DNA from: an uncultured Eubacteriales bacterium
Lineage (GTDB): Bacteria > Bacillota > Clostridia > TANB77 > CAG-508
Direction of reading: 5' to 3'
DNA length: 64,000 bases
NCBI GenBank assembly: GCA_949287075.1
Contig: CASEEU010000015.1
Location: 43,479-107,478, forward strand
Shown here: positions 17,986 to 39,026 of the stretch, one piece after another
Numbering within the stretch: the first letter of the stretch is position 1
Layout: every line of letters starts with the position of its first letter
Translations under genes and position numbers: made by a program
The notes under the pieces: model-generated
Databases searched by the model: none
What the model was told of the DNA's origin: nothing
The model's input: only the letters and a program-made list of their open reading frames with translations

Positions 17986-18765
17986 ATGCCCTATAAAATT
18001 AGAAAAGGTAGTATGACAAAGATATATCATGTCATGCTACGAGGAAATGATAAGCAAGATATTTTTTATGATTATCAAGATTATTGCAAGTTTTTAAAAA
18101 TACTTAAGATAATAAAAGAGAAATACCATTGCGAAATATATGAATATTGTTTAATGACAAACCATGTACATATGATTATTTTTGATCGTCAAGATGTATT
18201 ATCAAAAGTAATACAAAGTTTGGCAATATCCTATTCATTATATTTTGCTAAAAAATATAAAAAAGAAGGTCATTTATTTCAAGGTAGATTTTTAAGTAAA
18301 AGTGTTGAATCTAGAGAGTATTTGTGTACATTGTGTAGATATATTCATCAAAATCCATTAAAAGCGAATATTGCAAAAACTGAAGAGTATCAATGGAGTA
18401 GTTACAATGAGTTTTTATTTGATTCTAAGATTAAGATTATAAATCCAAATCCTATTTTATCCATGTTTGGTCAAACAAAAAAAGAAGCCAGAAAAAATTT
18501 TATCATATATCATAGTCGTAAAGAAAATCTCATAAATGAAGAAGTAGAATATGAATTTGCCTATAAACTAACAGATGAACAGGTAAAAGAAAAAATTCAG
18601 CAAATTTTAAAAATAGAAAATGTGAGACTATTTCGCATGTATGATAAAGATACAAGAGATGCAAAATTGAAAGAATTAAAAATTATTAAAGGGGCTTCAA
18701 AAGCACAAATATCAAGAGTATTAGGGATTAATAAGAAAATGGTAGAGAGAATAATGAAAAGTTAA
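17986..18765 (+). CDS. REP-associated tyrosine transposase (RAYT, Y1/HUH family)
   Basis: The protein has 259 aa, starting at ATG 17986 with RBS AAAGGAG. It is a single-strand DNA transposase-like endonuclease of the IS200/IS605 Y1 superfamily. The HUH metal-binding motif is H60-V61-H62 (in LMTNHVHMI), the FQGRF motif is at 98-102, and the catalytic Tyr is Y119 in RYIHQNPLKA. The C-terminal part (about 190-259) ends in a helix-turn-helix-like segment (GASKAQISRVLGINKK). Length and motifs fit the RAYT group, which is domesticated and found with short palindromic REP elements. Four REPs flank it on each side in opposite orientation, and many more lie within 32 kb. There is no left- or right-end structure of a full IS200 element and no tnpB. 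All key residues are present, so it is probably functional. Confidence 0.9.
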   Translation: MPYKIRKGSMTKIYHVMLRGNDKQDIFYDYQDYCKFLKILKIIKEKYHCEIYEYCLMTNHVHMIIFDRQDVLSKVIQSLAISYSLYFAKKYKKEGHLFQGRFLSKSVESREYLCTLCRYIHQNPLKANIAKTEEYQWSSYNEFLFDSKIKIINPNPILSMFGQTKKEARKNFIIYHSRKENLINEEVEYEFAYKLTDEQVKEKIQQILKIENVRLFRMYDKDTRDAKLKELKIIKGASKAQISRVLGINKKMVERIMKS

Positions 18766-19503: not shown

Positions 19504-20322
19504 ATGAAAAAAGTACTAGGAACTATATTATTTGTAGTATATGCTATTATTGCTATTACAGTTACAGTTTTACTATTATCATATAATGATTATAACAATA
19601 GTGTAATAGGTGATTATACTGTTTATATAGTCACAGATGACTCATTAGAGCCTGAATATAAACAAGGTTCTATACTATTAATAAAAGGAACAAATGATAG
19701 AAATGTACAAGTTGGGGATGAATTGTTTATATATAAAGTATTAAATAGTTCAGAATATGAAGTAATTTCAACAACTTTACAAGCAAAAACGCAACAAGGA
19801 AGTCATACAGTTTATATTGTAGATAATGAAGAAAGTTATGCAAGTGACTACTTTATTGGTAAAGTAGATGATACTATTGTTATAGAAGGTTGGGGATATA
19901 TATTAAGCCTACTAGAATCTAGATGGGGATACTTATTCTGTATCGTAGTAGTATCATTATTGCTATTCCTACAAGAAGTATTTGAATTAGTAATGGAAAT
20001 TAAATATCTTAATCAGCAGAAGAAAAAAGCAAAAGAGGAAGCTGAAGCAGAGGACGAATATGATGAGGATGAATACGATGAAGATGAAGAATATGAAGAG
20101 GAAGAAGTAGTTGCAAAACCAAGGAAGACTACGAGAACAACCAAAAAAACAAGTCCAAAAACAGCAACTAGGGCAAGTACGAGAACAAAAACAGCAACAG
20201 CTTCAAAGGCTGGTACGACAAAAAAAGCGGGAACAACTTCAAAAGCTAGTACAGCAAGAAAAACAAGTACAACAAGAAAAACAGCAACAACAACTACTCG
20301 TAAACCAAAGACTACAAAATGA
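19504..20322 (+). CDS. SipW-like signal peptidase homologue, probably degenerate, with charged tail
   Basis: A 272-aa protein. TM1 is at about 5-26; an outside domain carries DDSLEP (Ser47) where SipW-type S26B peptidases have the nucleophile in GSMEP; TM2 is at about 142-160. The cytoplasmic tail of about 110 aa is first strongly acidic (DEDEYDEDEEYEEEE) and then Lys/Arg/Thr-rich. The His expected about 35 residues after the Ser (T-H-R in relatives) is not seen: the equivalent reads VISTTLQ (88-93). The enzyme is therefore doubtful, and a pseudo-peptidase or chaperone role is possible. A poorly conserved alternative catalytic geometry cannot be excluded. It lies 18 bp upstream of a TasA-like gene, in operon layout. 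Confidence 0.65.
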   Translation: MKKVLGTILFVVYAIIAITVTVLLLSYNDYNNSVIGDYTVYIVTDDSLEPEYKQGSILLIKGTNDRNVQVGDELFIYKVLNSSEYEVISTTLQAKTQQGSHTVYIVDNEESYASDYFIGKVDDTIVIEGWGYILSLLESRWGYLFCIVVVSLLLFLQEVFELVMEIKYLNQQKKKAKEEAEAEDEYDEDEYDEDEEYEEEEVVAKPRKTTRTTKKTSPKTATRASTRTKTATASKAGTTKKAGTTSKASTARKTSTTRKTATTTTRKPKTTK

Positions 20323-20340: not shown

Positions 20341-20985
20341 ATGAAAAAATTATTAAGAATTTTAGTATTAATAATGTTAATTATAACCTTATTCCAAATA
20401 GCGAATATGTATGCTTTATATAAAGACCAATTAGAAGGTGAATATACAAATTTATTGGGTGTATGGTCAATTAAAGTAAATAGTACAGACATATCTTCAG
20501 GAGGTGAAAATTTGACTTTTAACATGACAGAAGACAATCTTGTATATTTGGATTCTGATCGTGTTAAAAGCCAAAAAATGGCACCAGGTACACAGGCATA
20601 TTTTGAAATTATTATAGATCCAACGGATACAGATGTAGCTGTTTTATATACACTAAATATAAAATTAGAAGATGTAACAACAGCAAATTTAAAATTAGTG
20701 AATGTGGAAAATTATTTTCAAAAACCTGGAGATACAGAACAATTGACAAATAGTGATGTATATACAAACAATGAAACCAATGCACATGAAGCATTAATTC
20801 CTCTTACAAGAATAAATGATAAATATGAAAACCATATCAAATTATATTTCGAATGGGAAAATTTAGAAGAAAATAATGCAGCTGATTCAGAATTAGGACA
20901 AACAGAAAATGCAAAGATATCTATACCATTAGAAATTAATTTAAAACAATATACAGGAGAAGTGATAGGCAATGAAAACGGATAA
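20341..20985 (+). CDS. TasA/camelysin-type exported fibre protein
   Basis: A 214-aa protein. The N-terminal signal/membrane segment (about 4-24) is followed by the short mature start YALYKDQLEGEY and GVWSIKVNSTDIS. Later come APGTQAYFEIIIDPTDTDVAVLYTL, a layout typical of SipW-processed TasA/CalY-like proteins (export, then assembly outside the cell). There is no sorting motif. It overlaps the next gene, a SipW peptidase, by 14 nt, so the two are translationally coupled as an enzyme-substrate pair. The closest paralogue in the window is the 27043 gene. Confidence 0.75.
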   Translation: MKKLLRILVLIMLIITLFQIANMYALYKDQLEGEYTNLLGVWSIKVNSTDISSGGENLTFNMTEDNLVYLDSDRVKSQKMAPGTQAYFEIIIDPTDTDVAVLYTLNIKLEDVTTANLKLVNVENYFQKPGDTEQLTNSDVYTNNETNAHEALIPLTRINDKYENHIKLYFEWENLEENNAADSELGQTENAKISIPLEINLKQYTGEVIGNENG

Positions 20986-21496
20986 AATATTAAAAATTAT
21001 TAAAAAAGTAATTATAAATCTAATAATTTTTGTATTAAGTATCATTGCTATTCTTGTCATATGGGGATTTATACAATTAAATATACAAAACAAAGAATAT
21101 ATAGATATGTTTGGCTATTCTATACTTAGTACAGAAACTGGAAGTATGTCACCAACCATAGAAAAAGGTGATATTATAATAGTTAAAATAGGTGATGAAA
21201 TAAAGGAAAATGATATTATAACATACAAACAGGATAATGCACTGATTACACATAGAATAGAACAAATTAATGGTGATACCATTATTGCAAAAGGAGATTA
21301 TAATAACACACCAGATGATCCAATACAAAAAGATCAGGTGATAGGGAAAGCCGTTTATATTATACATAATGTAGAAATTTGGAAAAAAGTATTTACCGAT
21401 ATTCATGTTATCATACCAATGATTATAACAGTAGTATTATTTATAGTGATGGTTTCATATAAAGAAAAAATAGGTGAGAAAAAAGATGTTGGATAA
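20972..21496 (+). CDS. sipW: Signal peptidase I, SipW/archaeal (S26B) type
   Basis: A 174-aa protein. TM1 is at about 11-34, then TGSMSP with nucleophile Ser58, GDIIIV at 67-71, ITHRIEQ with catalytic His94, and KGDYNNTPD (108-116) with the Asp box. TM2 is at about 146-164, with a short basic tail. A Ser-His pair instead of Ser-Lys marks the ER/archaeal class, as in Bacillus SipW, which cleaves TasA-like precursors. It overlaps the genes on both sides (20341 and 21486), both probable substrates. Confidence 0.88.
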   Translation: MKTDKILKIIKKVIINLIIFVLSIIAILVIWGFIQLNIQNKEYIDMFGYSILSTETGSMSPTIEKGDIIIVKIGDEIKENDIITYKQDNALITHRIEQINGDTIIAKGDYNNTPDDPIQKDQVIGKAVYIIHNVEIWKKVFTDIHVIIPMIITVVLFIVMVSYKEKIGEKKDVG

Positions 21497-22158: not shown

Positions 22159-23205
22159 ATGAACAACTTAATGGATACATATATAACATTTACAGAAAAG
22201 AAAATAAAAAAATATATGAAAACATTATTGGCAAAACAATACGATGAAAATTTAGTAAATGAATATTTAAAAACATATATCAATGCCAGATATTATAATA
22301 TTCAAAATGCAGACAAGCCTGCAAGAGCGTTTTATTTAAGAATATTAGAAGAATTAGAATATAAAGAAGATATTTTAATGAAAAAATGTGAAGAAGAGGC
22401 GCAAAACTTAGATGAAAAGCAAAGAAACTTGAATATCATTTACAATTTAAAAGAATTATTTGCCTACATTTTGTTTTTTGATAATGTTAGAAATGTAGAA
22501 AATTTTAAGACAATTGATAATATAAAAGAAATTATCAGTAAAATGGTACAAACAGCAAATACATTATTTGATGCAGGCATTTCACAAAGTGCAGAAAAAA
22601 AACTGTATGAAGAAATGAAAAATGATATGCTAGAAAAAGAAATATTTTTAGAGAAATTTGATACAGATGAATTTGCATTACAATTTGAAAACAGCAAAGT
22701 TAAAGATGAAATATATTTTGTTACATTAGAACAAAAAGTAAAAATGCCTATGCAATATAGTGAAGAAGCTATAGAAAAAGTATATCATGAAGGAATTGTG
22801 GCAGAGGATAAATTACAAGTAGAATATATATTATTAAGTGTTGTTGTTATTTCAGATATTGTCAATGGGAATTTTAATGACAAATATATTGCAGAATTTA
22901 CAAGTACCTTATTTAAAAAGAAACAAAAATTAGATAGTGTTTTATCTATTATTGGAAATCAAGCTTTACAAGATAAAATTAGTTTAAATATTATGTATTC
23001 TGACTATAAAAAGAATCAAAAAAGTGTATTAGAATACACGAAAAAAGGTTACAATTTTACGATAACATTAGATAATGAAGCAAAAAGTATAGAGGATGTA
23101 GAAGAATTAAAAATGTTTAAAATGGTTATTGTACCTCAAAAATTATTGTTATACAAAGATATCAAAAGCAATAAAGAGATGTTCAATAACGTAATTTTTA
23201 AATAA
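22159..23205 (+). CDS. Helical cytoplasmic protein of unknown family, upstream of the AAA+ gene
   Basis: The start is ATG 22159 with RBS AGGAGGT; upstream in-frame ATGs lie within REPs and are not credible starts. About 348 aa, acidic and basic mixed, almost all predicted helix, with no signal peptide or membrane segment. No domain is recognised. Features are DKPARAFYLRILEELEYKED near the N-terminus and a beta-like end (GYNFTITLDNEAKSIEDVEELKMFKMVIVPQKLLLY). It precedes the membrane AAA+ ATPase and the DUF2357 gene, separated only by REP arrays, so a joint complex is likely. Confidence 0.7.
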   Translation: MNNLMDTYITFTEKKIKKYMKTLLAKQYDENLVNEYLKTYINARYYNIQNADKPARAFYLRILEELEYKEDILMKKCEEEAQNLDEKQRNLNIIYNLKELFAYILFFDNVRNVENFKTIDNIKEIISKMVQTANTLFDAGISQSAEKKLYEEMKNDMLEKEIFLEKFDTDEFALQFENSKVKDEIYFVTLEQKVKMPMQYSEEAIEKVYHEGIVAEDKLQVEYILLSVVVISDIVNGNFNDKYIAEFTSTLFKKKQKLDSVLSIIGNQALQDKISLNIMYSDYKKNQKSVLEYTKKGYNFTITLDNEAKSIEDVEELKMFKMVIVPQKLLLYKDIKSNKEMFNNVIFK

Positions 23206-23208
23206 AAA

Positions 23209-23341
23209 TGTCGCATAGAAAAACGATCTCAATGCGACAAATGTCGCATAGAAAAACGATCTCAATGCGACAAATGTCGCACAGAAAAACGAACTCAATG
23301 CGACAAAGAATGTCCCACAGAAAAACGATCTCAATGGGACA
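23209..23341 (+). repeat. REP cluster E, 4 copies
   Basis: Copies are at 23209-23239, 23242-23272, 23275-23305 and 23311-23341 (the last with TGTCCCA/TGGGACA arms). The array starts 3 nt after the stop codon. A partial echo of the right arm (CAATGGGACA twice) follows at 23344-23360. Confidence 0.95.
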
Positions 23342-23386
23342 TCAATGGGACAATGGGACACAAAATAAAAATGGGAGAAGTAAAAC

Positions 23387-24940
23387 ATGGAAACATATGG
23401 AAGATTTTTATTTGAATTTTTAAGCCAATTCTTTTCTGGATTTGGAGACATATTTGGTGGACTTTGGAATGGGATTATAAATATATTTAATATACCAAGA
23501 TACTGGGGGATTATCCAAAATTATTCTAATGATTTTAAGGTTTCAGAATGGTTTTTAACAGGATTAGCCATTATCTGTATGCTGATTGTTATTGGGGGAA
23601 TTATTGGAATTATTATCTTTTTCTTGAAGAGACATATGAAATGGAGAAAAAAGATTGTAGATCAAGAAGAATTGTTAAAACAAATAGATACTTTAAATGG
23701 ACAAGTAGAAGAACTAGTAGACGAAAAATTAAAATTATTAAATATGAAGTCACCAGAATTAGGTGTTAATCCAAACGGAATTAGTACAGGAATGGATAAA
23801 GCTGCATTAGCAGCTGCACAATCAGAAGCAAATAATGAAGAACAAATTGATCCAAGTAGTCAAAGTAGATTTTCTAAGTTAACAATGTTGGATGAAGAAT
23901 TTGCAAAATATAAACAAAAAGATTATCACAACAGCTTTACATTACCAGAGTTTTGCTATATGTTCAGAAATTTTGCTGCAAGCAAGTTAAAATTATATTA
24001 TAGTGAAAAAATGATAAGATTATTTGTATCAGCAGTTGCATCAACTAAACTTGTTATCCTACAAGGTATTTCTGGTACAGGTAAAACATCTATATCTCTT
24101 GCATGGGGTAACTTTGTAAAACATCCATCATGTGTTGCATCTGTACAACCCTCTTGGAGAGATAGAACAGATATTTTTGGATACTTAAATGAATTCACTA
24201 AGAAATTTAATGAAACAGACTTCTTAGCATATTTATATGAAGCTGGATATACAGATGAAATTTATACAGTTATACTTGACGAGATGAACTTAGCGCGTGT
24301 GGAATACTATTTTGCAGAAATGCTATCTATTCTAGAAATGCATAGTACAAAAGATTGGAAAATTGAAATTGTACAAAGTTCATGGCCAACAGATCCAAAG
24401 AAATTAATCAAAGGAAAATTACAAATTCCACCTAATGCATGGTATATCGGAACAATCAACAATGACGACTCAACATTCATGGTAACAGATAAGGTATACG
24501 ATAGAGCGATGCCAATAGATATCAATGAAAAAGGTGTTGCATTTGAAGCAGATGATGTTGATGCAATTGATGTAAATTATTCATACTTGAATGGATTATT
24601 TGACAAAGCAATTGTAGATTATGCAATATCACCAGCAACTTTGAAAAAGATAGAAGACATGGATAACTATACAATCAAACACTTTAGAGTTGCATTTGGT
24701 AACCGTATTGTAAAACACATGAAAAAATTCGTACCAGTATATGTAGCTTGTGGTGGAGACGAAACAGAAGCTGTAGACTATTTCATGGCAAAAAAAGTAT
24801 TAAGAAAATTTGAAGGATTAAACTTAACATTAATTAGAGATGAAATTGATGGTTATATTGATTTCTTAGACAAAAACTTTGGAAAAGGTAAAATGAGTGA
24901 ATGTATAGAATTCTTACTAAGACTTAAAAAGATGTCTTAA
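23387..24940 (+). CDS. Membrane-anchored McrB-like AAA+ ATPase
   Basis: A 517-aa protein with RBS GGGAG. The N-terminal region has amphipathic stretches and one clear TM (about 56-80), followed by basic residues and a coiled coil (about 90-120). The AAA+ domain starts near 200: Walker A GISGTGKTS (227-235), the McrB/MoxR-type QPSWRDRTDIFGY (254-266), Walker B ILDEMNLARVEYYF (296-309), sensor 1 GTINND (355-360) and an Arg-finger-like VYDRAMP (R373). DEMNLA is the signature of McrB-type NTPases, which usually drive a McrC or DUF2357 nuclease. A membrane anchor is unusual in that family. The neighbour is a DUF2357 protein, and the surrounding genes encode SipW and fibre proteins, so a role in export or envelope assembly should be considered. 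Confidence 0.85.
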   Translation: METYGRFLFEFLSQFFSGFGDIFGGLWNGIINIFNIPRYWGIIQNYSNDFKVSEWFLTGLAIICMLIVIGGIIGIIIFFLKRHMKWRKKIVDQEELLKQIDTLNGQVEELVDEKLKLLNMKSPELGVNPNGISTGMDKAALAAAQSEANNEEQIDPSSQSRFSKLTMLDEEFAKYKQKDYHNSFTLPEFCYMFRNFAASKLKLYYSEKMIRLFVSAVASTKLVILQGISGTGKTSISLAWGNFVKHPSCVASVQPSWRDRTDIFGYLNEFTKKFNETDFLAYLYEAGYTDEIYTVILDEMNLARVEYYFAEMLSILEMHSTKDWKIEIVQSSWPTDPKKLIKGKLQIPPNAWYIGTINNDDSTFMVTDKVYDRAMPIDINEKGVAFEADDVDAIDVNYSYLNGLFDKAIVDYAISPATLKKIEDMDNYTIKHFRVAFGNRIVKHMKKFVPVYVACGGDETEAVDYFMAKKVLRKFEGLNLTLIRDEIDGYIDFLDKNFGKGKMSECIEFLLRLKKMS

Positions 24941-24948
24941 CGGAAAAA

Positions 24949-25086
24949 TGTCGCATAGAAAAACGAACTCAATGCGACAAATGTCGCATAGAAAAACGAT
25001 CTCAATGCGACAAATGTCCCACAGAAAAACGATCTCAATGGGACAAAAACGAAAATGTCCCACAGAAAAACGATCTCAATGGGACA
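24949..25086 (+). repeat. REP cluster F, 4 copies
   Basis: Copies are at 24949-24979, 24982-25012, 25015-25045 and 25056-25086. The first two have TGTCGCA arms and the last two TGTCCCA/TGGGACA. They lie between the AAA+ stop (8 nt away) and the RBS of the DUF2357 gene. Confidence 0.95.
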
Positions 25087-25100
25087 CAGGAGGATAAGAA

Positions 25101-26222
25101 ATGGACTTAAATATTGTGAAATTAGCAAATATGGAAAAAGAGAAATCAACAAAATTTCTTAGCAAAATGGAGTCTAAGCTAATTATGGACGTAGATAGAA
25201 GTCATCTGGTTGAAAATGATGAATGGACAGATATGGTTCTATTTACGATTCCATATTTAGAAAAAGCATTAACTAAAGAAATAAAAAATATTGTGATAGA
25301 AGAAGAAATTATAAAAATAGAATTAATCAAAAAGGTAACAGTTGATAGTGTAAAACATTTGACGAAACATGTAAATATGGTGGATAAATTCAATCAAAGA
25401 AGTGGAGAAGTAACACCTAAAAAGATTTTAAATGCATATAAAGAAGAAACATTTCTTACTTATGAAAATCGATTTTTATATACTTTGATAAAATTGATTG
25501 AAGATTATATGTATTTAAGAAAAAAAGAGGCAAAAGAAGAATACAAAGGGAAAAGTCATCAAAAGGCAAATTATGAAGCAGAGGTTAAGTTAAATAAAGA
25601 AAAAATTAATGTAAAATTGGAATTTCATTCTGAGAAAAAAACAGAAGTTACGAAATCAGAAAAAACATCAGAAAAAATTGCAGAGATAGAGCAATCTATA
25701 AAAATGTTAAAACAAACAGAAGTTTATCAAATCTTGGTGGCTAAGAAAGCAACTTATGTAAAAGCACCATTAAAAATGACAAATGTTTTGTTGAAAAATG
25801 TAAATTTCCAATATGCTGTAAAACTTTGGAACTATTTAAGTGAACAAATGGAATTAAATGATAAGACGATTAATGAAACAAGCCAATATGAAGAAAAAGG
25901 AATTGTGAAGGAACTAGTAGATGAAGATATCTTTTTGTTAAATGCTATCTTAAAAAAGACGGATAGTAGTAATACATTAAAAGGAAAAGCAAAAACACCA
26001 ATTGAAGATAAGAAAATGGCAAAAGAATTAACAGATGCTATGATTGAAAGAATTATTGAATTAAACCCTGATATGACAGAAAAAGAATTAAATAAATTGA
26101 TTTCTGAGAAAATTTTACTAATGAAAACGAAAAAATTAATTTCTTTAAAACCAGTAGAAGATCGCTTTAAGGAACGAATTGAGAAATATATGATACAAGC
26201 AAAAGAAATGAGGTTAAAATAA
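25101..26222 (+). CDS. DUF2357-type partner of the McrB-like ATPase, no visible nuclease domain
   Basis: A 373-aa protein, ATG 25101 with RBS AGGAGG. The segment TPKKILNAYKEETFLTYENRFLYTLIKLI (residues about 105-133, key residues YENRF at 121-125) matches the DUF2357 core found in proteins paired with McrB-like AAA+ subunits. Those relatives normally end in a PD-(D/E)XK nuclease; here the C-terminal part is Lys-rich helical sequence with no PD...(D/E)xK arrangement that I can see. The next gene (SipW) starts directly after the stop codon, so both are on one mRNA. It may act as the adaptor of a non-restriction AAA+ machine. Confidence 0.7.
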   Translation: MDLNIVKLANMEKEKSTKFLSKMESKLIMDVDRSHLVENDEWTDMVLFTIPYLEKALTKEIKNIVIEEEIIKIELIKKVTVDSVKHLTKHVNMVDKFNQRSGEVTPKKILNAYKEETFLTYENRFLYTLIKLIEDYMYLRKKEAKEEYKGKSHQKANYEAEVKLNKEKINVKLEFHSEKKTEVTKSEKTSEKIAEIEQSIKMLKQTEVYQILVAKKATYVKAPLKMTNVLLKNVNFQYAVKLWNYLSEQMELNDKTINETSQYEEKGIVKELVDEDIFLLNAILKKTDSSNTLKGKAKTPIEDKKMAKELTDAMIERIIELNPDMTEKELNKLISEKILLMKTKKLISLKPVEDRFKERIEKYMIQAKEMRLK

Positions 26223-27023
26223 ATGAAAAGCAAGAATGACGAAAGAGAAGAAGAGAACATAAAAAATGGAAAAAAACAGACTAAAACCAAAAAAGAAACC
26301 AAAGGAAAAACAAATAAGCCAAAAGCAAAAAAAGAAGTTAACACAGCAAAAAAAGAAGTTAACACAGCAAAAAAAGAAGTAAGTAAAACCAAAAAAGAAG
26401 TTAATACAGTAAAAAAATATGAACCAAAAACTCAAAAAAGTACGGAAAATATTGCAGGAAAAAATATAGGAAAAAAAGTTGCTAGTAAACCTTTAAAATT
26501 TATTTGGGGTATAATTGTCAAGATTTTAATGCTGGTTATTATATTTATCTCAATTATCATAATTGTACAAAAAGTAACCAATAATCAAGAATCATTTTTA
26601 GGATTTAGAATATTCAGAGTACAAACTGGAAGTATGATTCCCCAATATCAAGTAGGGGATGTCATCATTGTTAAAGAAACAGAACCAGACCAAATTAAAA
26701 TTGGTGATGATGTAACATATCAAGGAAAAACAGGACAAATGAAGGGATTACTTGTTACCCACAGGGTTGTAGATATTGAAGAAGTTGATGGAAAAAGAGT
26801 TTTCCATACAAAAGGTATTGCAAATAACTTAGAAGATCCTGTTGTTAGCGAAGATCAAGTCAATGGTGTTGTTCAAACAAAAATGTATATTTTATCATGG
26901 ATTTGTGTGTTATTAAATAATAAATATGTTTTCTATTTCTGTGGAATATTGCCACTAACAATATATGTTGCGTTTAGAGTTTTCAAAGGAAAAAATATAA
27001 AGAGAGCAGAAAGGAAAATTTAA
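26223..27023 (+). CDS. sipW: SipW-type signal peptidase with Lys-rich N-terminal extension
   Basis: A 266-aa protein. A cytoplasmic extension of about 90 aa is Lys/Thr-rich with a heptad repeat (KKEVNTA). TM1 is at about 93-116, then TGSMIP with Ser137, GDVIIV (145-150), VTHRV with His180 and an Asp-box region (KGIANNLEDP, 198-206). TM2 is at about 218-245, with a basic end. All catalytic positions are present. The start follows the DUF2357 stop immediately (TAA-ATG), and the downstream gene is a probable substrate. Confidence 0.87.
   Translation: MKSKNDEREEENIKNGKKQTKTKKETKGKTNKPKAKKEVNTAKKEVNTAKKEVSKTKKEVNTVKKYEPKTQKSTENIAGKNIGKKVASKPLKFIWGIIVKILMLVIIFISIIIIVQKVTNNQESFLGFRIFRVQTGSMIPQYQVGDVIIVKETEPDQIKIGDDVTYQGKTGQMKGLLVTHRVVDIEEVDGKRVFHTKGIANNLEDPVVSEDQVNGVVQTKMYILSWICVLLNNKYVFYFCGILPLTIYVAFRVFKGKNIKRAERKI
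26328..26411 (+). repeat. Four 21-bp tandem repeats inside sipW
   Basis: Four in-frame units encode KKEVNTA, KKEVNTA, KKEVSKT and KKEVNTV. The first two are identical in DNA. This makes a short, highly basic cytoplasmic repeat whose copy number may vary between strains. Confidence 0.85.
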
Positions 27024-27042
27024 TAAATAGAGAGGAAAATGG

Positions 27043-27780
27043 ATGAAAGAAACAAGTAAAGAAAATGAAAAGGGAAATTTGAATAAAGAAAAAAATAGAA
27101 TTAGAATGATTGAAATACTATGTCTGATTTCTTTAATTATTACCATTTTTTCTATCCAAAGAACATATGCCAGATATTTTGAACAAGTAGATACAACATA
27201 TAATACCAATATTAAAAGTTGGTTAGTGAAAGTAAATGATACCATTATACACGAAGCAGAAACACTTAATGAAGTTATGGAACCAATCCTTACAGAAAAT
27301 GAAAATATAAATGATAATATTTTAGTACCTGGACAAACTGGATATTTTGAAATGCTGATAGATTATACAGAGGTAGATCTTGCATTTGAGTATGAATTTT
27401 CTATTGAACAATTAAATGAAACTCCATTAGATGATTTTGAAATATATGGGTATGAAGTTATTGATGGAGACAGTCACACAGTAACAGAAACAAAAGAAAT
27501 AAAAGGTATCATTGATCCAACAACAGAAGTTAATAGTGCTGGAGAAAAGAAAAGAGAAATCAGAGTGTTGTTTAGATGGAATGATGGTGAAGGAAGTACT
27601 ATGGATAATACAGCAGATACGCAATTCAGAGGAGAAGAACAAAATACAACAGATACAGATGATACAAATCAAGTGGAAGATAATACTACGGAAAATGACT
27701 TACACACGGTATTAAACTATAGAGCAACTATGACATTCACACAATATATACCACCAGAAGAAACAGAAGGAGAGGGGTGA
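27043..27780 (+). CDS. TasA/camelysin-type exported fibre protein
   Basis: A 245-aa protein. A charged N-terminus, signal/TM segment (about 21-40) and TYARYFEQVDTTYNTNIKSW as the mature start. Then WLVKVNDTII and VPGQTGYFEMLIDYTEVDLAFEYEF closely mirror the 20341 protein. A polar D/N/T-rich loop (about 190-215) precedes a final strand pattern VLNYRATMTFTQYI. It is the probable substrate of the SipW encoded 19 bp upstream. No sorting signal is present. Confidence 0.75.
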   Translation: MKETSKENEKGNLNKEKNRIRMIEILCLISLIITIFSIQRTYARYFEQVDTTYNTNIKSWLVKVNDTIIHEAETLNEVMEPILTENENINDNILVPGQTGYFEMLIDYTEVDLAFEYEFSIEQLNETPLDDFEIYGYEVIDGDSHTVTETKEIKGIIDPTTEVNSAGEKKREIRVLFRWNDGEGSTMDNTADTQFRGEEQNTTDTDDTNQVEDNTTENDLHTVLNYRATMTFTQYIPPEETEGEG

Positions 27781-27785
27781 GCTGT

Positions 27786-27923
27786 ATGGAATTTAAAAAT
27801 ATAAAAACATCTAATTTAGAAAATGATGAATTGTTAGATACCCAAAAGCAAGTAGAAAGCTTTTTAAAGTTTTTAAATGGGGAATATGAAACAGTTAAAA
27901 AGTTAGAGGAGGAAAATTCGTGA
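27786..27923 (+). CDS. 45-aa acidic helical miniprotein
   Basis: An ORF from ATG 27786 to TGA 27921-27923. The product has a helical heptad-like pattern (DTQKQVESFLKFLNGEYETVKKLEEE). The stop overlaps the GTG start of the next gene by 4 nt (GTGA), a layout typical of translational coupling. The spacing from the previous stop is only 5 nt, with GAGGGG as a possible RBS. It may be a small partner of the 539-aa coiled-coil protein. Confidence 0.6.
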   Translation: MEFKNIKTSNLENDELLDTQKQVESFLKFLNGEYETVKKLEEENS

Positions 27924-29539
27924 AAGAGTTAGTAGAAAAAATAGAAAAACAAATTACAACAGATAAAGAAGTGATTTCAGTATTGCCAAGAAATGGTATA
28001 AAAGCAATCAAAACATTATTAAAGACAATACAAGAAATGACTGAAAAATACGAAGGCTTAAATGAAAAGTTATTAAAAGAAATAGAAGAAAGATATAATA
28101 ATCTTACAACTGTTGAAGAAAATACAGAGATTCCTCAGATAGAGCAAGAAATATTAAGATATGATATTGCTGAAAAAAATACAGATACACGTTCTTCATT
28201 TGAAAAAATGGGATTAGATCGAGTAGTATATAATGTAAATGGGTATTACAAGAGTAATTTAGAAAGATTAAACAAAGAATTAATTTTCAGTATAAAACAA
28301 TTTGAAAAAATAGGAATCAAATTAACAGCAGATGATTTTTGTATCAGTGAGTATGCGAAGAAATACATGGAAGTTTTATTAAGAGAAGCTTATGATGGAG
28401 ATATCAATTCAGAAGCTGTAAAAAATCAATTTGAAAAAGTATATTGGGAATGTTCAGAAGTAGTATCACATTTATATGTAAATATAAGATATATTTATGA
28501 TAAATATGAAAATCAAATAGATAGATTTTATAATGAAAAAGCACAAGAAATTTTGAGAAGTCTTTCATTAACAGTAGAAGGTGTTGAAGAAAGAAAAGCA
28601 GAATTAATTAAAAAGAAAAATCAAATAGAAGAAACGGATAATAAGATTATTCTTGACAAATTTTATACAGGAAGCCTAAATATCAATGATTATAAAGAAG
28701 ACAATTATAAGAAAATATATTTAGAATTAACAGGAAAAGATGTTACAAATTTATCAGATATAGAAAAAAATGAGATAGACGAAAATATCGATAAATTGAA
28801 CACAAATTTAACAGAATATGCAAAATACTTAGAATATAAATTTTTAGTAGAACAAGTATTACAAACTAGACAAGAGTTATTAAAAAATGCAGAAGCCAAC
28901 AAAGATAAGAAAGTTAAGAAAACGCAATATGAATTATCAAAAGAAGAAATTAAAAAATTACAAACAGAGATATTTAAGTTGAATTCTAAAATAGAAAAAC
29001 CAAATAAAGGATTTTTCGAACGAAAAAAAGCAGAAGATAAGAAAGATAGCATTTCCATTTTACAAAGAAACAATTTCGTTTTAGATTTAAAGAAAGCATA
29101 TATGCAATTAGATGAAGAAATTATCAATCAAAAGATACTTCAAAATTTAGACGAAACATCATCATTATATGATGTACTAAGATTTGCAGGCAGTTATTAT
29201 GGATATATGGCTAAGGCAATGATAAAACATAATGAAGACATAACAGACAAAGAAATTGGAGAAAATGCTGAAAAAATAAGAAACTTTATCAATTTTTCTA
29301 ATTTTACAGTCATTAACCATGTAAAAATAAGTGACACAAAAGACTTATCCATTATCATAAAAGACAAATATAAATTATTAGGAATGCAACTTTCAAAAGA
29401 AAATTTTGAAGAAGATAGTATAGAAGATTTAATTAGAAAAGTAAAAATTATAACCAATTACAATAATATTCAAAAAAGTAAATTTTCTATTGGAGACTTA
29501 GAATATATTATGAATGTCAAAGAAATGATAAAAAAATAG
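27920..29539 (+). CDS. Large helical/coiled-coil protein of unknown family
   Basis: A 539-aa protein with GTG start 27920 (RBS GAGGAGG 5 nt upstream). No signal peptide or TM. Coiled-coil-rich segments lie at about 20-75, 185-235 and 290-350 (KKTQYELSKEEIKKLQTEIFKLNSKIEK). No enzymatic motif is seen. It lies between a SipW/TasA pair and the next SipW genes. Together with the helical 348-aa protein and the DUF2357 protein, it forms a cytoplasmic set unusual for a fibre locus; a scaffold for the membrane AAA+ ring is one possibility. Confidence 0.7.
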   Translation: MKELVEKIEKQITTDKEVISVLPRNGIKAIKTLLKTIQEMTEKYEGLNEKLLKEIEERYNNLTTVEENTEIPQIEQEILRYDIAEKNTDTRSSFEKMGLDRVVYNVNGYYKSNLERLNKELIFSIKQFEKIGIKLTADDFCISEYAKKYMEVLLREAYDGDINSEAVKNQFEKVYWECSEVVSHLYVNIRYIYDKYENQIDRFYNEKAQEILRSLSLTVEGVEERKAELIKKKNQIEETDNKIILDKFYTGSLNINDYKEDNYKKIYLELTGKDVTNLSDIEKNEIDENIDKLNTNLTEYAKYLEYKFLVEQVLQTRQELLKNAEANKDKKVKKTQYELSKEEIKKLQTEIFKLNSKIEKPNKGFFERKKAEDKKDSISILQRNNFVLDLKKAYMQLDEEIINQKILQNLDETSSLYDVLRFAGSYYGYMAKAMIKHNEDITDKEIGENAEKIRNFINFSNFTVINHVKISDTKDLSIIIKDKYKLLGMQLSKENFEEDSIEDLIRKVKIITNYNNIQKSKFSIGDLEYIMNVKEMIKK

Positions 29540-29655: not shown

Positions 29656-30270
29656 ATGGAGCTGAGAGAAAAATTGGAATATGATGTTGAAAAAATTTCT
29701 CATAAAATAAAAAATAAAAAAAGAACGAAAAAGATAATCAAATTTGTTATATTAATTAGTTTAATCATTCTTTTTATTGTAAATCTAATTTTATCAATAG
29801 AAGAAAAAACGCATATTTTTGGGATATATATGTTTAATATTGTTTCTGAAAGTATGGAGCCAACATTTTACAAAGATGATTTAGCAATTGTAAAAAGTTG
29901 CAACATAGAGGAACTAAAAGTAGGAGATATTATCACATTTAGACAAGAAGATAGAATTATTTCACATAGGATATCGAAAATCGAAAAAGAATCTGAAGAG
30001 TTCATTACTAAGGGAGATAATAACGAAGTAGAAGACGTAGAACCAGTAGATGAGCAAAACATATATGGTAAAGTTGAATGGATTATCCCGAAAATAGGGA
30101 AATTTGTCAATTATATACAAAATGTAAGAGGCTTTATGAATGTATGTATTTTAATAGTGATTATATGCATTTTAGTTAATTTTAGAGATAATAAGATAAA
30201 TAATCGTAAAATCAAAAGAAAAAAATATGAAATAAAAAAATTGAGAGATAATTATAAGATAGAAGGTTAA
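29656..30270 (+). CDS. sipW: SipW-type signal peptidase
   Basis: A 204-aa protein. TM1 is at about 28-48, then SESMEPT with Ser66, ISHRISK with His104 and TKGDNNE (118-123) with the Asp. TM2 is at about 146-160 and the C-terminus is basic. The Ser/His/Asp set is complete. ATG 29656 has no clear Shine-Dalgarno sequence (REP sequence ends 12 nt before); a TTG at 29674 preceded by GGAG is an alternative that would remove six residues. Confidence 0.85.
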   Translation: MELREKLEYDVEKISHKIKNKKRTKKIIKFVILISLIILFIVNLILSIEEKTHIFGIYMFNIVSESMEPTFYKDDLAIVKSCNIEELKVGDIITFRQEDRIISHRISKIEKESEEFITKGDNNEVEDVEPVDEQNIYGKVEWIIPKIGKFVNYIQNVRGFMNVCILIVIICILVNFRDNKINNRKIKRKKYEIKKLRDNYKIEG

Positions 30271-30273
30271 GCT

Positions 30274-31179
30274 ATGAGGGAGGATAATAAACAAAAACGT
30301 AATACAAAAAATATTATAAAAATTGTACTAATTATATTATATCAAGTACTTGTTGTTATGGCGTTAATTTTGACTATGGTCATTATTCTACAAAAAGTAA
30401 CAAATAGTAACGGATCAATAGGTGGATATAAAATATTTAGAGTTATTACTGGAAGTATGGAGCCTGAATATGAAGTTGGAGAAGTTGTTATCAGTAAGGA
30501 AGTAGATCCTAAAGAGATTCAGGTAGGGGATGATATTGTGTATTTAGGTAAAATTGGTGAATATGCAGGAAAAATCATCATGCACAATGTTATTGAAATT
30601 GATACAAATGAAAATGGAAAATTAAGTTTCCATGCAAAAGGTTTACAAAGTAATAGTGTAGAAGACCCTCAAATTAGCGAAGAACAAGTATATGGTGTTG
30701 TAAAATATAAATCAACCATATTGACAATATTATATAATTTAGCAACCAATATATATTCAATATTCTTTATTGTTATCATTTTAGTGTTAAATGTATTTAT
30801 AGCATTTAATACACCTAAAAAAACTAAAAAACGAAAAGTAAAACGAATTGCAAATATAGATAATGATACAGATGAAACATTTTATGATGAAGAAGTAGAG
30901 GACAATATAGAAGAATTTGAAGAAGAGGAAACTGATGATACAGAAGAAATATATGATATTTCTGACAATGAAAATATGGAAGAAGAAGCAGAAGAAGATA
31001 ATCAGCAAGATGTAGAAAAAATGATACATGACAAAATGATACATGACAAAATGATGCAGATGCTAAATAGCGATAAAAAAGCAAATATAAAGAAGAATAC
31101 AAGTGTAAAGACTACAACCAAGAAGAATACAAGCACAAATACACAAAAGAAAAAAGGGGAAAATAGAAAAAACAAATGA
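30274..31179 (+). CDS. sipW: SipW-type signal peptidase with long acidic/basic cytoplasmic tail
   Basis: A 301-aa protein starting 3 nt after the previous stop. TM1 is at about 14-40, then TGSMEPE with Ser61, an IIMHNV segment with His104 (usual T-H-R changed to M-H-N) and FHAKG (119-123). TM2 is at about 150-175. A tail of about 120 aa is first acidic (EEVEDNIEEFEEEETDD...), then has DKMIHDKM repeats, then is Lys/Thr/Asn-rich. The tail plan matches that of the degenerate 19504 protein, so it is probably functional on the cytoplasmic side. Catalysis is likely, since Ser and His are kept. Confidence 0.8.
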   Translation: MREDNKQKRNTKNIIKIVLIILYQVLVVMALILTMVIILQKVTNSNGSIGGYKIFRVITGSMEPEYEVGEVVISKEVDPKEIQVGDDIVYLGKIGEYAGKIIMHNVIEIDTNENGKLSFHAKGLQSNSVEDPQISEEQVYGVVKYKSTILTILYNLATNIYSIFFIVIILVLNVFIAFNTPKKTKKRKVKRIANIDNDTDETFYDEEVEDNIEEFEEEETDDTEEIYDISDNENMEEEAEEDNQQDVEKMIHDKMIHDKMMQMLNSDKKANIKKNTSVKTTTKKNTSTNTQKKKGENRKNK

Positions 31180-31194
31180 TAGGATGGAGGTTTT

Positions 31195-31899
31195 ATGAAT
31201 ATATTACGTGAAGTTAGACGAGTCAAAAAGCGAAGTCTTCCAGCTAGAATTTTACTAATTTCAATTTTTACTGTAATATTAATAATAAATACCTATGCCT
31301 GGTTTAATGCAAATGAACCAGTTAAAATGAATGGATTAGAAGCGGATATAACACCTTGGGATGTTCGATACTATGTAGATGATAAAGAAATACTAGACGA
31401 AACAGTTACATTCACAATAGATCAATTATATCCAGGTATGCCTAATAGAGAAGATACTGTACGAATTTATAATATGAGTACAACAAGTACGAATATAACA
31501 TATGAATTAACTTCAGTGAAAGTTTTTGGACAAGAAATATTAGAACAACTAAAAACAGATGGAATTATTCAAAATGAGGGAAATATAGTAAATATATTTG
31601 GAGATAATACAGAATATCCTTTTAAGATAGGATATACTTATGATAGAACAAGACTAGATGGTGAATTTGTAGATGATACAACGACACCGAACGCAGGAGC
31701 AACATTTAAATTTCAAGCTACTTGGGACTATCAAGGAAATGGAACACCAGATGAAAATCTTGCCAAAGATATATTAGATACAAAATTTGGAAAAGGGGCT
31801 TATGCATATTATCAAGATGAAAATAATGACCCATCTAAAGCAATCCAAATAACTGTAAAAATAACAAGTTCAATGATTCACCCAAATGCAGATAATTAA
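31195..31899 (+). CDS. TasA-like exported protein (TYAWF class)
   Basis: A 234-aa protein with RBS GGAGG. A basic N-terminus, signal/TM segment (about 17-35) with the boundary NTYAWFNANEP. Then a beta-rich domain: DITPWDVRYYVDDKEI, YPGMPNREDTVRIYN, NITYELTSVKVFG. The same WDxxYYxxxxE and TLYP/LYPG motifs recur in the N-terminal half of the 34872 protein, so the two are paralogues. A likely SipW substrate and a candidate fibre subunit or cap. Confidence 0.75.
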   Translation: MNILREVRRVKKRSLPARILLISIFTVILIINTYAWFNANEPVKMNGLEADITPWDVRYYVDDKEILDETVTFTIDQLYPGMPNREDTVRIYNMSTTSTNITYELTSVKVFGQEILEQLKTDGIIQNEGNIVNIFGDNTEYPFKIGYTYDRTRLDGEFVDDTTTPNAGATFKFQATWDYQGNGTPDENLAKDILDTKFGKGAYAYYQDENNDPSKAIQITVKITSSMIHPNADN

Positions 31900-32095: not shown

Positions 32096-32881
32096 ATGGC
32101 AAATGAAGAAACGACCAATACACCAACACTTGAAGAACAAATTGACGAAGCAACAATTGGTGAAAAACTAGAAAAGAAGGCAAAAAAAGAAAAAAGAAAA
32201 AATAAAAGACGTATTGCTTTTGAAATATTTTTAGTACTCATTATATTATTGTTGGTTAATCTATACATTGTATTATCAATATTTTATAAGGGAGAAAATT
32301 TCACCGTAACACTAGATAGTGAATATGGAAGAGAAAGTGGCTTGGTCATATATGAAGACCCAAATAATAAATACACAAGAACATTTTTAAGATCACAAGA
32401 CATAGAATTTTTTACTGACATATCTATAGATTGGTTACCAGAAGATATAGACAATGAAGGAAATGGATCACATAATGGTAGAAATTATATAGCATATACA
32501 TTTTATGCAGAAAATATGGGACAAGATGTTATTAATTATTGGACAACCATAAAAATAGATGATGTTATAAAAGATGTTGATGATGCAATTAGAGTTATGA
32601 TCTTTAAAAATGGAGAAAGAGTTGTTTATGCAAAAAATAATGAACAAACAGGAGAACCTGAACCAGAAACAACACCTTTCAAAGATGAAGACACCGTTAT
32701 GTTAGATTTAACAGAAAATTTTGAGGTAGGCGATATTGATAAATGGACTGTTGTCATTTGGCTAGAAGGAGATGATCCTGAATGCTTAGATAACTTGATA
32801 GGTGGAGAAATTAAAATGCATATGACCCTTACAGAAGAACATATCTTACAAGAAGATGAAACACCACAAGATCAAAGATAA
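32096..32881 (+). CDS. Membrane-anchored TasA-like surface protein
   Basis: A 261-aa protein. The cytoplasmic N-terminus of about 40 aa is charged (KLEKKAKKEKRKNKRR), followed by one TM (about 43-63) and an extracellular domain. The C-terminal motif WLEGDDPECLDNLIGGEIKMHM parallels WLEGQDVDCINYASLGGGL in the next gene, including the acidic-Cys loop, so the two share a domain. The long pre-TM segment and lack of a clear cleavage site suggest it stays in the membrane and could be the base of the fibre. It is transcribed from the consensus promoter just upstream. Confidence 0.7.
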   Translation: MANEETTNTPTLEEQIDEATIGEKLEKKAKKEKRKNKRRIAFEIFLVLIILLLVNLYIVLSIFYKGENFTVTLDSEYGRESGLVIYEDPNNKYTRTFLRSQDIEFFTDISIDWLPEDIDNEGNGSHNGRNYIAYTFYAENMGQDVINYWTTIKIDDVIKDVDDAIRVMIFKNGERVVYAKNNEQTGEPEPETTPFKDEDTVMLDLTENFEVGDIDKWTVVIWLEGDDPECLDNLIGGEIKMHMTLTEEHILQEDETPQDQR

Positions 32882-33044: not shown

Positions 33045-34358
33045 ATGAGAGAAGTAAACAATGAAAGAAACTCAAGAAAAAGATTAAATGCGTTAATTTT
33101 ATTAGTAGCATTTACAGCAATCTTATTGATTGTATCAACATATGCGTGGTTCTCTACGCAGAAAAACGTTACTTTAAGTGGACTACATGGTAAAGTAAAC
33201 GTAGCAGAAGGTCTACAAGTTTCATTAGATGCTTTAAACTGGGCAAATGAAATTAATTTGGCAGATAATGCAAAAGCATATTTCGCACAAACAAATACAC
33301 AAAATAATTGGACAGATGAAGATGGTACTACAACAGAAGGCGATATATCTGATGATATGGTATCTTTATTAAATCCATGGAAAACTGAAGATGGAGATGC
33401 TTGGGGACGTACAAATTTTATACCAAGTGAATTATTACCAGTTTCAACAACAGCACAACAAAATGAAGGAATTGGTCTAACTGACTTAAATATGTACAGA
33501 GGAGAAAATACAGAAGGAATTAAATTAAGTACTATTACCAATATGACTACAGATGATACTGGTGCAGAAAAAGGATTTTATGCAATTGATTTATTCTTAC
33601 AAAACTCTTCATCAGAAACAGCTATTACAGGTCACACAAATGACTTGCTTAGACTTGAAACAAATTCATCAATCAGATTAGACACAACATCAAAAGAGTC
33701 AACAGGATTACAAAACACATTAAGAGTAGCATTTGCTATATTTGATGAGGATACAGATTTAGCAGATCAAACATTAGTAAGTAACACACCAAGTCAAAGC
33801 CAAATCTTAGAAGCTACAACTGGTGCTGAACGTAAAATAACAGATGTTGCAATTTGGGAACCAAATGCAAGTGGTGCACAACAAACAGAAGGAGATCCTA
33901 GTCCAGTAGTAACAAAATATGCAGCACATGTTGATTACATTGTACAAAACAATAACAAAGTAACATTTTCATCAACAGACCGAACAACATATAGTATACC
34001 AGCAACAAACAAATTTACAGCTGAAATGAAATTACCTACATATGCTTTAACAAGTGCATCAACAGGTACTATTAATAATATATATGATTGGGACACAGGA
34101 GCAACAGCAGCAGGATTAGTAAAACAAAACACAGTTACAACAGACAACTCAGGGACAATATCAGCTGCAGTACAATTAAAGAGTGTTAAAGATGGTACAA
34201 CTGATTTCTCAATTGCACCAGGTAAATATATCCATATGAGAATGTATGTATGGCTAGAAGGACAAGACGTTGACTGTATCAACTATGCTTCACTAGGTGG
34301 AGGATTAACCATTAACGTTGGATTAAGCAAACCAGGTACAGCAGCCGATGGAGATTAA
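33045..34358 (+). CDS. Probable major extracellular fibre subunit (TYAWF class)
   Basis: A 437-aa protein with RBS AAGGGAG. The basic N-terminus is followed by a signal/TM segment (about 14-33), with VSTYAWFSTQKNVTLSGL at the mature boundary. The mature part is Thr/Ser/Asn-rich and beta-predicted, with the shared C-terminal motif YVWLEGQDVDCINYASLGGGLTI. It has its own long leader with a hairpin and is closed by a strong terminator at 34420-34464, which suggests high expression. It is the largest simple TasA-like protein in the cluster. No sorting signal; assembly after SipW cleavage is inferred. Confidence 0.72.
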   Translation: MREVNNERNSRKRLNALILLVAFTAILLIVSTYAWFSTQKNVTLSGLHGKVNVAEGLQVSLDALNWANEINLADNAKAYFAQTNTQNNWTDEDGTTTEGDISDDMVSLLNPWKTEDGDAWGRTNFIPSELLPVSTTAQQNEGIGLTDLNMYRGENTEGIKLSTITNMTTDDTGAEKGFYAIDLFLQNSSSETAITGHTNDLLRLETNSSIRLDTTSKESTGLQNTLRVAFAIFDEDTDLADQTLVSNTPSQSQILEATTGAERKITDVAIWEPNASGAQQTEGDPSPVVTKYAAHVDYIVQNNNKVTFSSTDRTTYSIPATNKFTAEMKLPTYALTSASTGTINNIYDWDTGATAAGLVKQNTVTTDNSGTISAAVQLKSVKDGTTDFSIAPGKYIHMRMYVWLEGQDVDCINYASLGGGLTINVGLSKPGTAADGD

Positions 34359-38777: not shown

Positions 38778-39026
38778 ATGGAAATAGCAAAATGGATATT
38801 GGTTGTTATATATTTTATAATAGCATTAGCAATCATTATATTAGCATTATTACAATCAAAAGAAGATTCAGGATTATCTTCAACAATAACAGGTTCATCA
38901 ACCAACAACTTCTTTGAAAGAAATAAGGGAAGAACAAAAGAAGGAAAACAAAAAAGATGGACGGCTATTTTGTCAATCGTTTTTGCAGTATTAACGATTG
39001 TATTAGGAATATTATATATGGCATAA
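38778..39026 (+). CDS. secG: Preprotein translocase subunit SecG
   Basis: 82 aa with two TM helices (about 5-24 and 61-80) joined by the typical loop QSKEDSGLSSTITGSSTNNFF and a basic stretch. It is the accessory subunit of SecYEG, the channel that would export all surface proteins of this window. RBS is AGGAGAAAGG, a little distant. Followed by rnr, the usual clostridial order. Confidence 0.93.
   Translation: MEIAKWILVVIYFIIALAIIILALLQSKEDSGLSSTITGSSTNNFFERNKGRTKEGKQKRWTAILSIVFAVLTIVLGILYMA

Follow-up and report, generated by a model that had tools for sequence, protein, structure and literature searches.

A McrB-like NTPase with a predicted membrane anchor and a DUF2357 partner encoded among SipW-type signal peptidase and exported-protein genes in uncultured bacteria

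Analysis of a 64,000-nucleotide stretch of DNA from an uncultured Eubacteriales bacterium (contig CASEEU010000015.1, positions 43,479 to 107,478 of the forward strand; the whole stretch is called the window below) revealed a locus in which genes for a McrB-like nucleoside triphosphatase (NTPase) of the AAA+ class, a McrC homolog of the DUF2357 family, and a helical protein (HEL1) are positioned among genes encoding SipW-type signal peptidases (SipA to SipE) and exported proteins (Tas1 to Tas6) (Table 1). At least six genes of the locus encode proteins with one N-terminal hydrophobic helix. HEL1, the NTPase, and the DUF2357 protein occur as a largely conserved trio in the midst of SipW-type and exported-protein genes, and a fiber-related role of this module is likely. 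A first-pass annotation, made from the sequence alone, had described the set as a membrane ATPase with a nuclease-less partner in a SipW/TasA fiber locus. Its observation was confirmed, including the coordinates of the HEL1 and HEL2 open reading frames (ORFs) and of the other genes that it named, and its interpretation was partly supported.

The NTPase, a protein of 517 residues, contains a single strong hydrophobic helix at approximately residues 57 to 80 (mean hydropathy of 3.1 across the 20 residues starting at 60 or 61), followed by the basic sequence KRHMKWRKK, a heptad-like sequence (seen by eye), and the AAA+ domain. When the protein was compared with the PDB, McrB chains were the sole matches below an E value of 0.1 (best, 4e-5), and the AAA+ domain, searched at an E value of 0.001, likewise matched McrB chains alone. 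The catalytic motifs are Walker A GISGTGKTS, Walker B ILDEMNLAR, and NNDD. The ORF, the helix, and the DEMNLAR-type Walker B motif thus agree with the first-pass annotation. No DNA-recognition Pfam domain was found above the cut-off at the N terminus of the window protein and 14 relatives, where the membrane helix is located instead. Homology of the N terminus to FtsB-type proteins was weak, with DivIC matched in 1 of 15 sequences (E value of 0.055) and FtsL in 2 of 15 (best E value, 0.013).

With a profile of the NTPase, relatives were detected within the window's order in 27 of 238 genomes. A second group was reached via locus L022, which is labeled Bacilli; in this group, consisting of the order to which the L022 genome belongs, 51 of 193 genomes contained relatives. 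In a sample of 398 genomes from the phylum, for which the top three candidates per genome were scored, 27 genomes apart from the window's own gave domain-level matches only (up to 140 bits), and 28 McrB-like loci from these 27 genomes served as controls. The first set was counted as 47 loci after removal of L095 to L097 (same contigs as L015, L013, and L010), L030 (no NTPase), and the short loci L001 to L009, L032, and L037 to L091, whose genes are contained in longer loci; this count includes two genes split over contig ends and entered as four loci (L112/L113 and L114/L115), and several of its loci are closely related to the window, with NTPases more than 90% identical. From the 55 matches of the second group, 39 loci were fetched, and L211 is without the NTPase. 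The window and L010 to L036 served to train the detection models, so L092 to L094, L098 to L115, and L174 to L213 are out of sample.

Within the fetched stretches, a SipW-type gene was found in 46 of the 47 first-set loci and a Tas-type gene in 45; L026, the sole first-set locus without SipW, is a 4-kb contig. When genes shorter than 90 residues were ignored, the NTPase gene was followed by one for a DUF2357 protein in 43 of 44 cases, and the gene after that encoded SipW in 40 of 44. In the second group, DUF2357 (361 to 410 residues) came next in 39/39 loci and SipW directly after it in 35/39, with SipW and Tas genes each present in the stretch in 37/39. The first-pass annotation had asked whether SipW always accompanies the set; it does so nearly, but not entirely, without exception. 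Across both sets, the order NTPase-DUF2357-SipW was found in 75 of 83 loci, and gene order was maintained among NTPases as distant as 40% identity. The 28 control loci contained no SipW, Tas, or HEL1 match, and SipW followed in 0/25. In a phylogenetic tree, a branch with 100/100 support separated the NTPase clade from seven control sequences. Walker A, Walker B (DEMN), and NNDD were retained in every first-set alignment row that covers them, and NNDD aligned without gaps to motifs of the NMDE/NVDE type in the control McrB relatives, i.e., to the NxD form of PMC11090510. Four second-group loci departed from the order: L199 and L212 have SipW at another site of the stretch, and L209 and L210 gave no SipW match. 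By Pfam, L209 encodes a Peptidase_S26-family signal peptidase, and L210 contains a similar gene (by eye). In L209 (10704-12377), L210 (7416-8669), and L212 (5566-6840), the gene after DUF2357 encodes not SipW but a membrane protein rich in DxDGDGxxD-type repeats that resemble calcium-binding motifs (by eye).

The DUF2357 protein (373 residues) matched the Pfam family DUF2357, corresponding to the N-terminal part of McrC, above the cut-off (E value of 8e-8), and the family was matched in 15/15 aligned homologs. The nuclease family PDDEXK_7 was detected in none of the window protein and its homologs (0/15 at an E value of 0.1; Pfam). Among the control loci, the next gene was checked in 10 of 28; PDDEXK_7 was matched at E values up to 0.01 in all 10 and above the cut-off in 8, and DUF2357 was matched in 9. 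The predicted model of the window protein, of moderate confidence (predicted local distance difference test [pLDDT], 68.5; predicted template modeling score [pTM], 0.44), showed nothing but helices beyond residue 268. A Foldseek search with this model returned nothing at an E value of 0.001, and the protein profile gave no useful match in the PDB. The description as a DUF2357-like protein without PD-(D/E)XK residues was borne out, and the nuclease fold that would have spoken against the first reading was seen neither in the PDDEXK_7 search nor in the moderate-confidence model. Nor was any nuclease family found above the cut-off in the window core (Pfam, NCBIfam).

HEL1 was detected in 37 of 47 first-set and 36 of 39 second-group loci, and it was located immediately upstream of the NTPase gene in 34 of 40 and 34 of 38 of those loci in which this could be judged. 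The window itself was scored as a miss because an antisense repeat ORF intervenes, and some HEL1 misses are truncated contigs or contain ORFs of similar size at the same site. No Pfam or NCBIfam family was matched above the cut-off by HEL1 or HEL2; the HEL1 profile matched PDB entry 2q73, a 100-residue "hypothetical protein," across a helical stretch (E value of 0.003), which was set aside as weak. HEPN nucleases carry the motif R-x4-6-H. A hidden HEPN identity of HEL1 and HEL2 was rejected because a tight R-x4-6-H is absent from their conserved columns (by eye). The miniprotein MINI, earlier given as 45 residues, stands at that length from its ATG and has 48 residues from an upstream GTG.

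In 14 loci, the ORF upstream of the NTPase gene (646 to 811 residues) encodes an N-terminal SipW domain and a C-terminal HEL1 domain, each matched at an E value of 1.7e-24 or better, and Ser and His of the SipW domain are retained in 14/14. Thirteen of the 14 fusion loci were included in the tree, where all fell in one clade; the fusion is therefore a single evolutionary event. SipW has two membrane helices with both ends inside, so the HEL1 part of the fusion would be cytoplasmic. This fusion is a new detail and suggests a concrete contact between HEL1 and SipW. The first-pass annotation had SipW genes fused to or beside the set; in the window they are adjacent and not fused, and the fusion was found in other genomes.

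The block is flanked by five SipW-type genes, four of them above the TIGR02228 cut-off and SipA below it, and SipC adjoins the DUF2357 gene (end of DUF2357 at 26222, start of SipC at 26223). Three of the paralogs have long, highly charged tails (by eye), Lys-rich in SipC and acidic in SipA and SipE. Ser and His of SipW presumably form the catalytic dyad. The SipW-type gene immediately before Tas1 was without the catalytic His in 32/32 readable first-set genes (one more was unreadable), and another ten genes of this class, in which Ser and His are present, were, by locus order, SipC genes preceding Tas3. In the second group, His was missing in 24/24 upstream SipW genes that precede Tas1, another SipW, UP0, or HEL1, and four other upstream SipW genes without a named neighbor had kept it in two cases and lost it in two. 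Both residues were present in 35/37 genes at the SipB position, the remaining two (L021, L022) being genes that precede Tas1, and at the SipC position in 42/43 first-set genes (one gap) and 35/35 of the second group. The first SipW of the locus is thus a predicted pseudo-peptidase, a new detail; its maintenance beside active-looking paralogs suggests that it may be a structural or regulatory component. In the window's own genome, 10/10 TIGR02228 matches were located in two stretches, on contigs C15 (window) and C12, each with one NTPase copy. Among 59 genomes of the family, 51 SipW-type matches were counted in the 7 genomes with the NTPase versus 51 in the 52 without it (E value of 0.001; summed by hand), and many of the latter are short and weak.

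The predicted model of Tas1 is a beta-sandwich (pLDDT, 79; pTM, 0.67). Its top Foldseek matches were collagen-binding adhesins and a secreted protein, then TTHA1873 and the cannula protein CanA, with the TasA fiber at rank 14; the scores were weak (7wwn, E value of 1.4e-3; 9hdi, 1.8e-3; 8aur, 3.7e-3; template modeling [TM] scores of 0.28 to 0.45). PF12389 (TasA/camelysin) had no match in the window's own genome, and the Bacillus subtilis positive control was detected. Seven exported window proteins, one upstream window protein, and two L025 proteins gave no NCBIfam match above the cut-off, and profiles of Tas1/3 and Tas5 gave no useful match in the PDB. The earlier TasA label is therefore without sequence-family support and keeps a weak fold match only; because of the missing family match and the low TM-scores, the exported proteins are called fiber-like here, not TasA.

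Table 1. Genes of the locus and their positions in the window (fractions refer to the 47 first-set loci and, where a second one is given, to the 39 second-group loci)
Feature	Description	Position	Strand	Evidence
NTPase	NxD McrB-like AAA+ with predicted membrane anchor	23387..24940	+	PDB profile, motif and hydropathy evidence
DUF2357	McrC homolog without nuclease	25101..26222	+	Pfam DUF2357; alignment; predicted model
HEL1	Helical protein adjoining NTPase	22159..23205	+	37/47 + 36/39 loci; start set by homologs
SipA	SipW-type paralog, predicted inactive, acidic then basic tail	19504..20322	+	NF046067 E 3.3e-11, TIGR02228 E 2.5e-9, both below cut-off; His column lost
SipB	SipW-type, Ser + His	20972..21496	+	TIGR02228 E 2.2e-18, above cut-off
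SipC	SipW-type, Lys-rich N terminus; usual gene after DUF2357	26223..27023	+	TIGR02228 E 1.9e-24, above cut-off
SipD	SipW-type	29656..30270	+	Pfam S24 + S26 above cut-off; genome match G000:C15:73206
SipE	SipW-type, long acidic tail	30274..31179	+	genome match G000:C15:73812, above cut-off
Tas1	Exported beta-sandwich protein, candidate fiber subunit	20341..20985	+	model pLDDT 79; weak fold matches
Tas2	One N-terminal hydrophobic helix	21474..22058	+	conserved neighbor, 35/47 loci
Tas3	Exported, aligns with Tas1	27043..27780	+	alignment and locus order
Tas4	Exported	31195..31899	+	40/47 loci
Tas5	Strongly conserved membrane-anchored extracytoplasmic protein	32096..32881	+	43-88% identity to nine relatives
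Tas6	Exported	33045..34358	+	34/47 loci; TIGR04088 E 0.049, below cut-off
HEL2	Second helical protein	27920..29539	+	present in 25/47 loci
MINI	48 residues from GTG (45 from ATG), overlaps Tas3 and HEL2	27777..27923	+	11/47 loci

Further genes surround the locus. The gene at 34872-36551 encodes an exported protein with a Tas4-like N terminus and an apparent FGE-sulfatase-like C terminus (by eye). Upstream of the locus, at 75-16661, a repeat-rich surface-type protein of 5528 residues is encoded. Relatives of this protein are encoded at the equivalent position in closely related genomes and also next to several further NTPase loci. The locus is followed by a SecG-like gene (38778-39026), which adjoins an RNase R-like gene (both named by eye). 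A transposase-like gene at 17986-18765, presumably resembling REP-associated transposases, lies amid 31-bp palindromic repeats. The repeat is present in 50 copies between 16662 and 49971 when up to 3 mismatches are allowed, compared with 0 expected from shuffled sequence, and in 138 copies genome-wide (up to 2 mismatches). In some copies, a change in one arm is matched by a change in the other (GTCGCA/TGCGAC and GTCCCA/TGGGAC).

From the anchor, the motifs, the loss of the nuclease, the gene order, the fusion, and the predicted pseudo-enzyme, all of them read from sequence, we infer a mechanism in which a McrBC-derived NTPase would have been converted from nucleic-acid restriction to membrane work. 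NTPase rings would sit beneath the membrane, where DUF2357 may activate them as McrC activates McrB, and HEL1 would link the ring to SipW complexes. Nucleotide hydrolysis could then drive or gate a step in which beta-sandwich subunits, once processed by SipW, are released, ordered, or assembled into a surface fiber. We slightly favor this general reading, i.e., a membrane-tethered cytoplasmic motor that is docked on SipW and drives or gates the maturation and assembly of surface fibers. The gene linkage, the anchor, the lack of a nuclease, and the SipW-HEL1 fusion are all consistent with the first-pass suggestion that the ring was recruited to the membrane to export or assemble fibers; the retraction of fibers that it also considered was without support. 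We know of no cytoplasmic motor in the donor-strand assembly of TasA-superfamily fibers. The more specific version, in which a nuclease-stripped McrBC-type ring, via HEL1 and active and dead SipW, would power or time the maturation and donor-strand assembly of such fibers and so represent a new kind of energy-driven assembly machine, is tentative and somewhat less probable than its opposite. If the preferred reading is true, a restriction-system motor is now part of a surface-fiber machine in uncultured, mostly gut-derived bacteria, CoCoPALM systems (see below) gain a function, and classing every McrBC relative as defense would be unwise.

Several results weigh against a fiber motor. The exported proteins matched no TasA sequence family and no PDB sequence, and the TasA match of Tas1 (8aur; TM-score of about 0.3) is weak, with collagen adhesins and a secreted protein ranked ahead of it. 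SipW-type genes are present in 27 of the 52 family genomes without the NTPase, so such export does not generally need it. The controls were drawn from other lineages, and lineage may therefore explain part of their SipW absence; the SipW counts within the own genome and the 59 family genomes are free of this weakness. L209 and L210 contain neither a SipW nor a Tas match, a SipW gene rather than HEL1 immediately precedes the NTPase gene in L110, L111, and L199, and the fusion arose only once. The NTPase domain matches the PADLOC candidate defense family PDC-M26A (E value of 2.3e-36), and ORFs with an RNxLAHG HEPN-like motif were found by motif scan in the fetched stretches of L199, L209, and L210. 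A HEPN family was matched by Pfam in L210 only, below the cut-off and in another part of the protein than RNxLAHG.

The PDC-M26A match and the HEPN-like ORFs speak for a CoCoNuT-like anti-phage system, in which the anchor and the signal peptidases would be sensors or effectors and the surface proteins would be guarded or modified. The NxD motif is also common to the control McrB relatives, and the passages on CoCoNuTs in PMC11090510 state that a McrC without a nuclease always occurs together with HEPN or other nucleases; genes with a HEPN-like motif were found near the three outlying loci. However, the window core is without a nuclease family above the cut-off, the order with SipW held in 75/83 loci, and one of the core proteins occurs as a fusion to a SipW that retains Ser and His. 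The homologous sets were found with SipW-type and exported-protein genes; a location mainly in defense islands, which would have spoken against the first reading, was not seen. The SipW genes of NTPase-less genomes, the PDC-M26A match, and the HEPN-like genes together leave a defense role a minor but real share of the probability.

An unfoldase or quality control function, which would extract stalled or misassembled fiber precursors or SipW complexes from the membrane, is just as unlikely as defense. It is consistent with a McrB-class AAA+ protein with intact catalytic motifs beside SipW paralogs with and without the catalytic His. However, signal peptidases aside, there is no protease family among the nameable conserved genes, and McrB-class rings are, to our knowledge, not known unfoldases. 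We regard as improbable that the trio binds RNA or DNA and, at the membrane, regulates how the large surface genes are expressed: its proteins contain no nucleic-acid-binding Pfam domain above the cut-off (weak single matches include CSTF2_hinge and PolB_N) and HEL1 is fused to a peptidase, although McrC homologs of many NxD relatives carry predicted RNA-binding domains, as stated in PMC11090510. Passive linkage, with the trio carried by chance on a mobile or surface-gene island, would agree with the patchy presence in 27/238 and 51/193 genomes and with the transposase-like gene and palindromic repeats of the window locus, but it is very improbable given the gene order kept down to 40% NTPase identity and the gene fusion.

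Comparison with known systems places the module between restriction and surface machinery. Like McrBC type IV restriction systems, it encodes a McrB-class AAA+ protein with a DUF2357 partner alongside; unlike them, it has a membrane anchor, as predicted from hydropathy, and a surface-gene context, and no PD-(D/E)XK nuclease or N-terminal DNA-recognition domain was found. With the B. subtilis SipW/TasA operon it shares a SipW-type signal peptidase gene beside genes for exported beta-sandwich proteins. That operon is not known to have an NTPase module, whereas the window has five SipW paralogs, including the predicted pseudo-enzyme, in a genome without a PF12389 protein. The NxD motif is shared with CoCoNuTs, in which, according to the passages on them, McrC homologs may also be without a nuclease (PMC11090510); the window core, in contrast, has no HEPN or helicase family above the cut-off and is accompanied by signal peptidases instead.

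The window locus is classed here as a CoCoPALM-type module, i.e., a member of a named class for which no tested role was found in the literature. The class was named in PMC11090510 (eLife 2024) in a few lines, with details deferred, so the first-pass statement that no such system had been described was wrong. In the library searched, no later study of CoCoPALM was found, by title, beyond the eLife paper and its preprint, and no publication was found that joins McrB, signal peptidase, and TasA. As described in PMC11090510, the NxD McrB of CoCoPALM systems carries a transmembrane and coiled-coil part that resembles FtsB, coiled coils occur in both the McrB and McrC homologs, and the associated signal peptidases are taken as likely pilus-assembly factors. 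The passages on the class in PMC11090510 do not mention HEL1, the SipW-HEL1 fusion, the pseudo-SipW, or beta-sandwich export substrates. Three of the five features listed there were found in the window, and the two systems have in common the NxD McrB-like domain, the N-terminal transmembrane helix, the McrC homolog, and proteins of the signal peptidase family.

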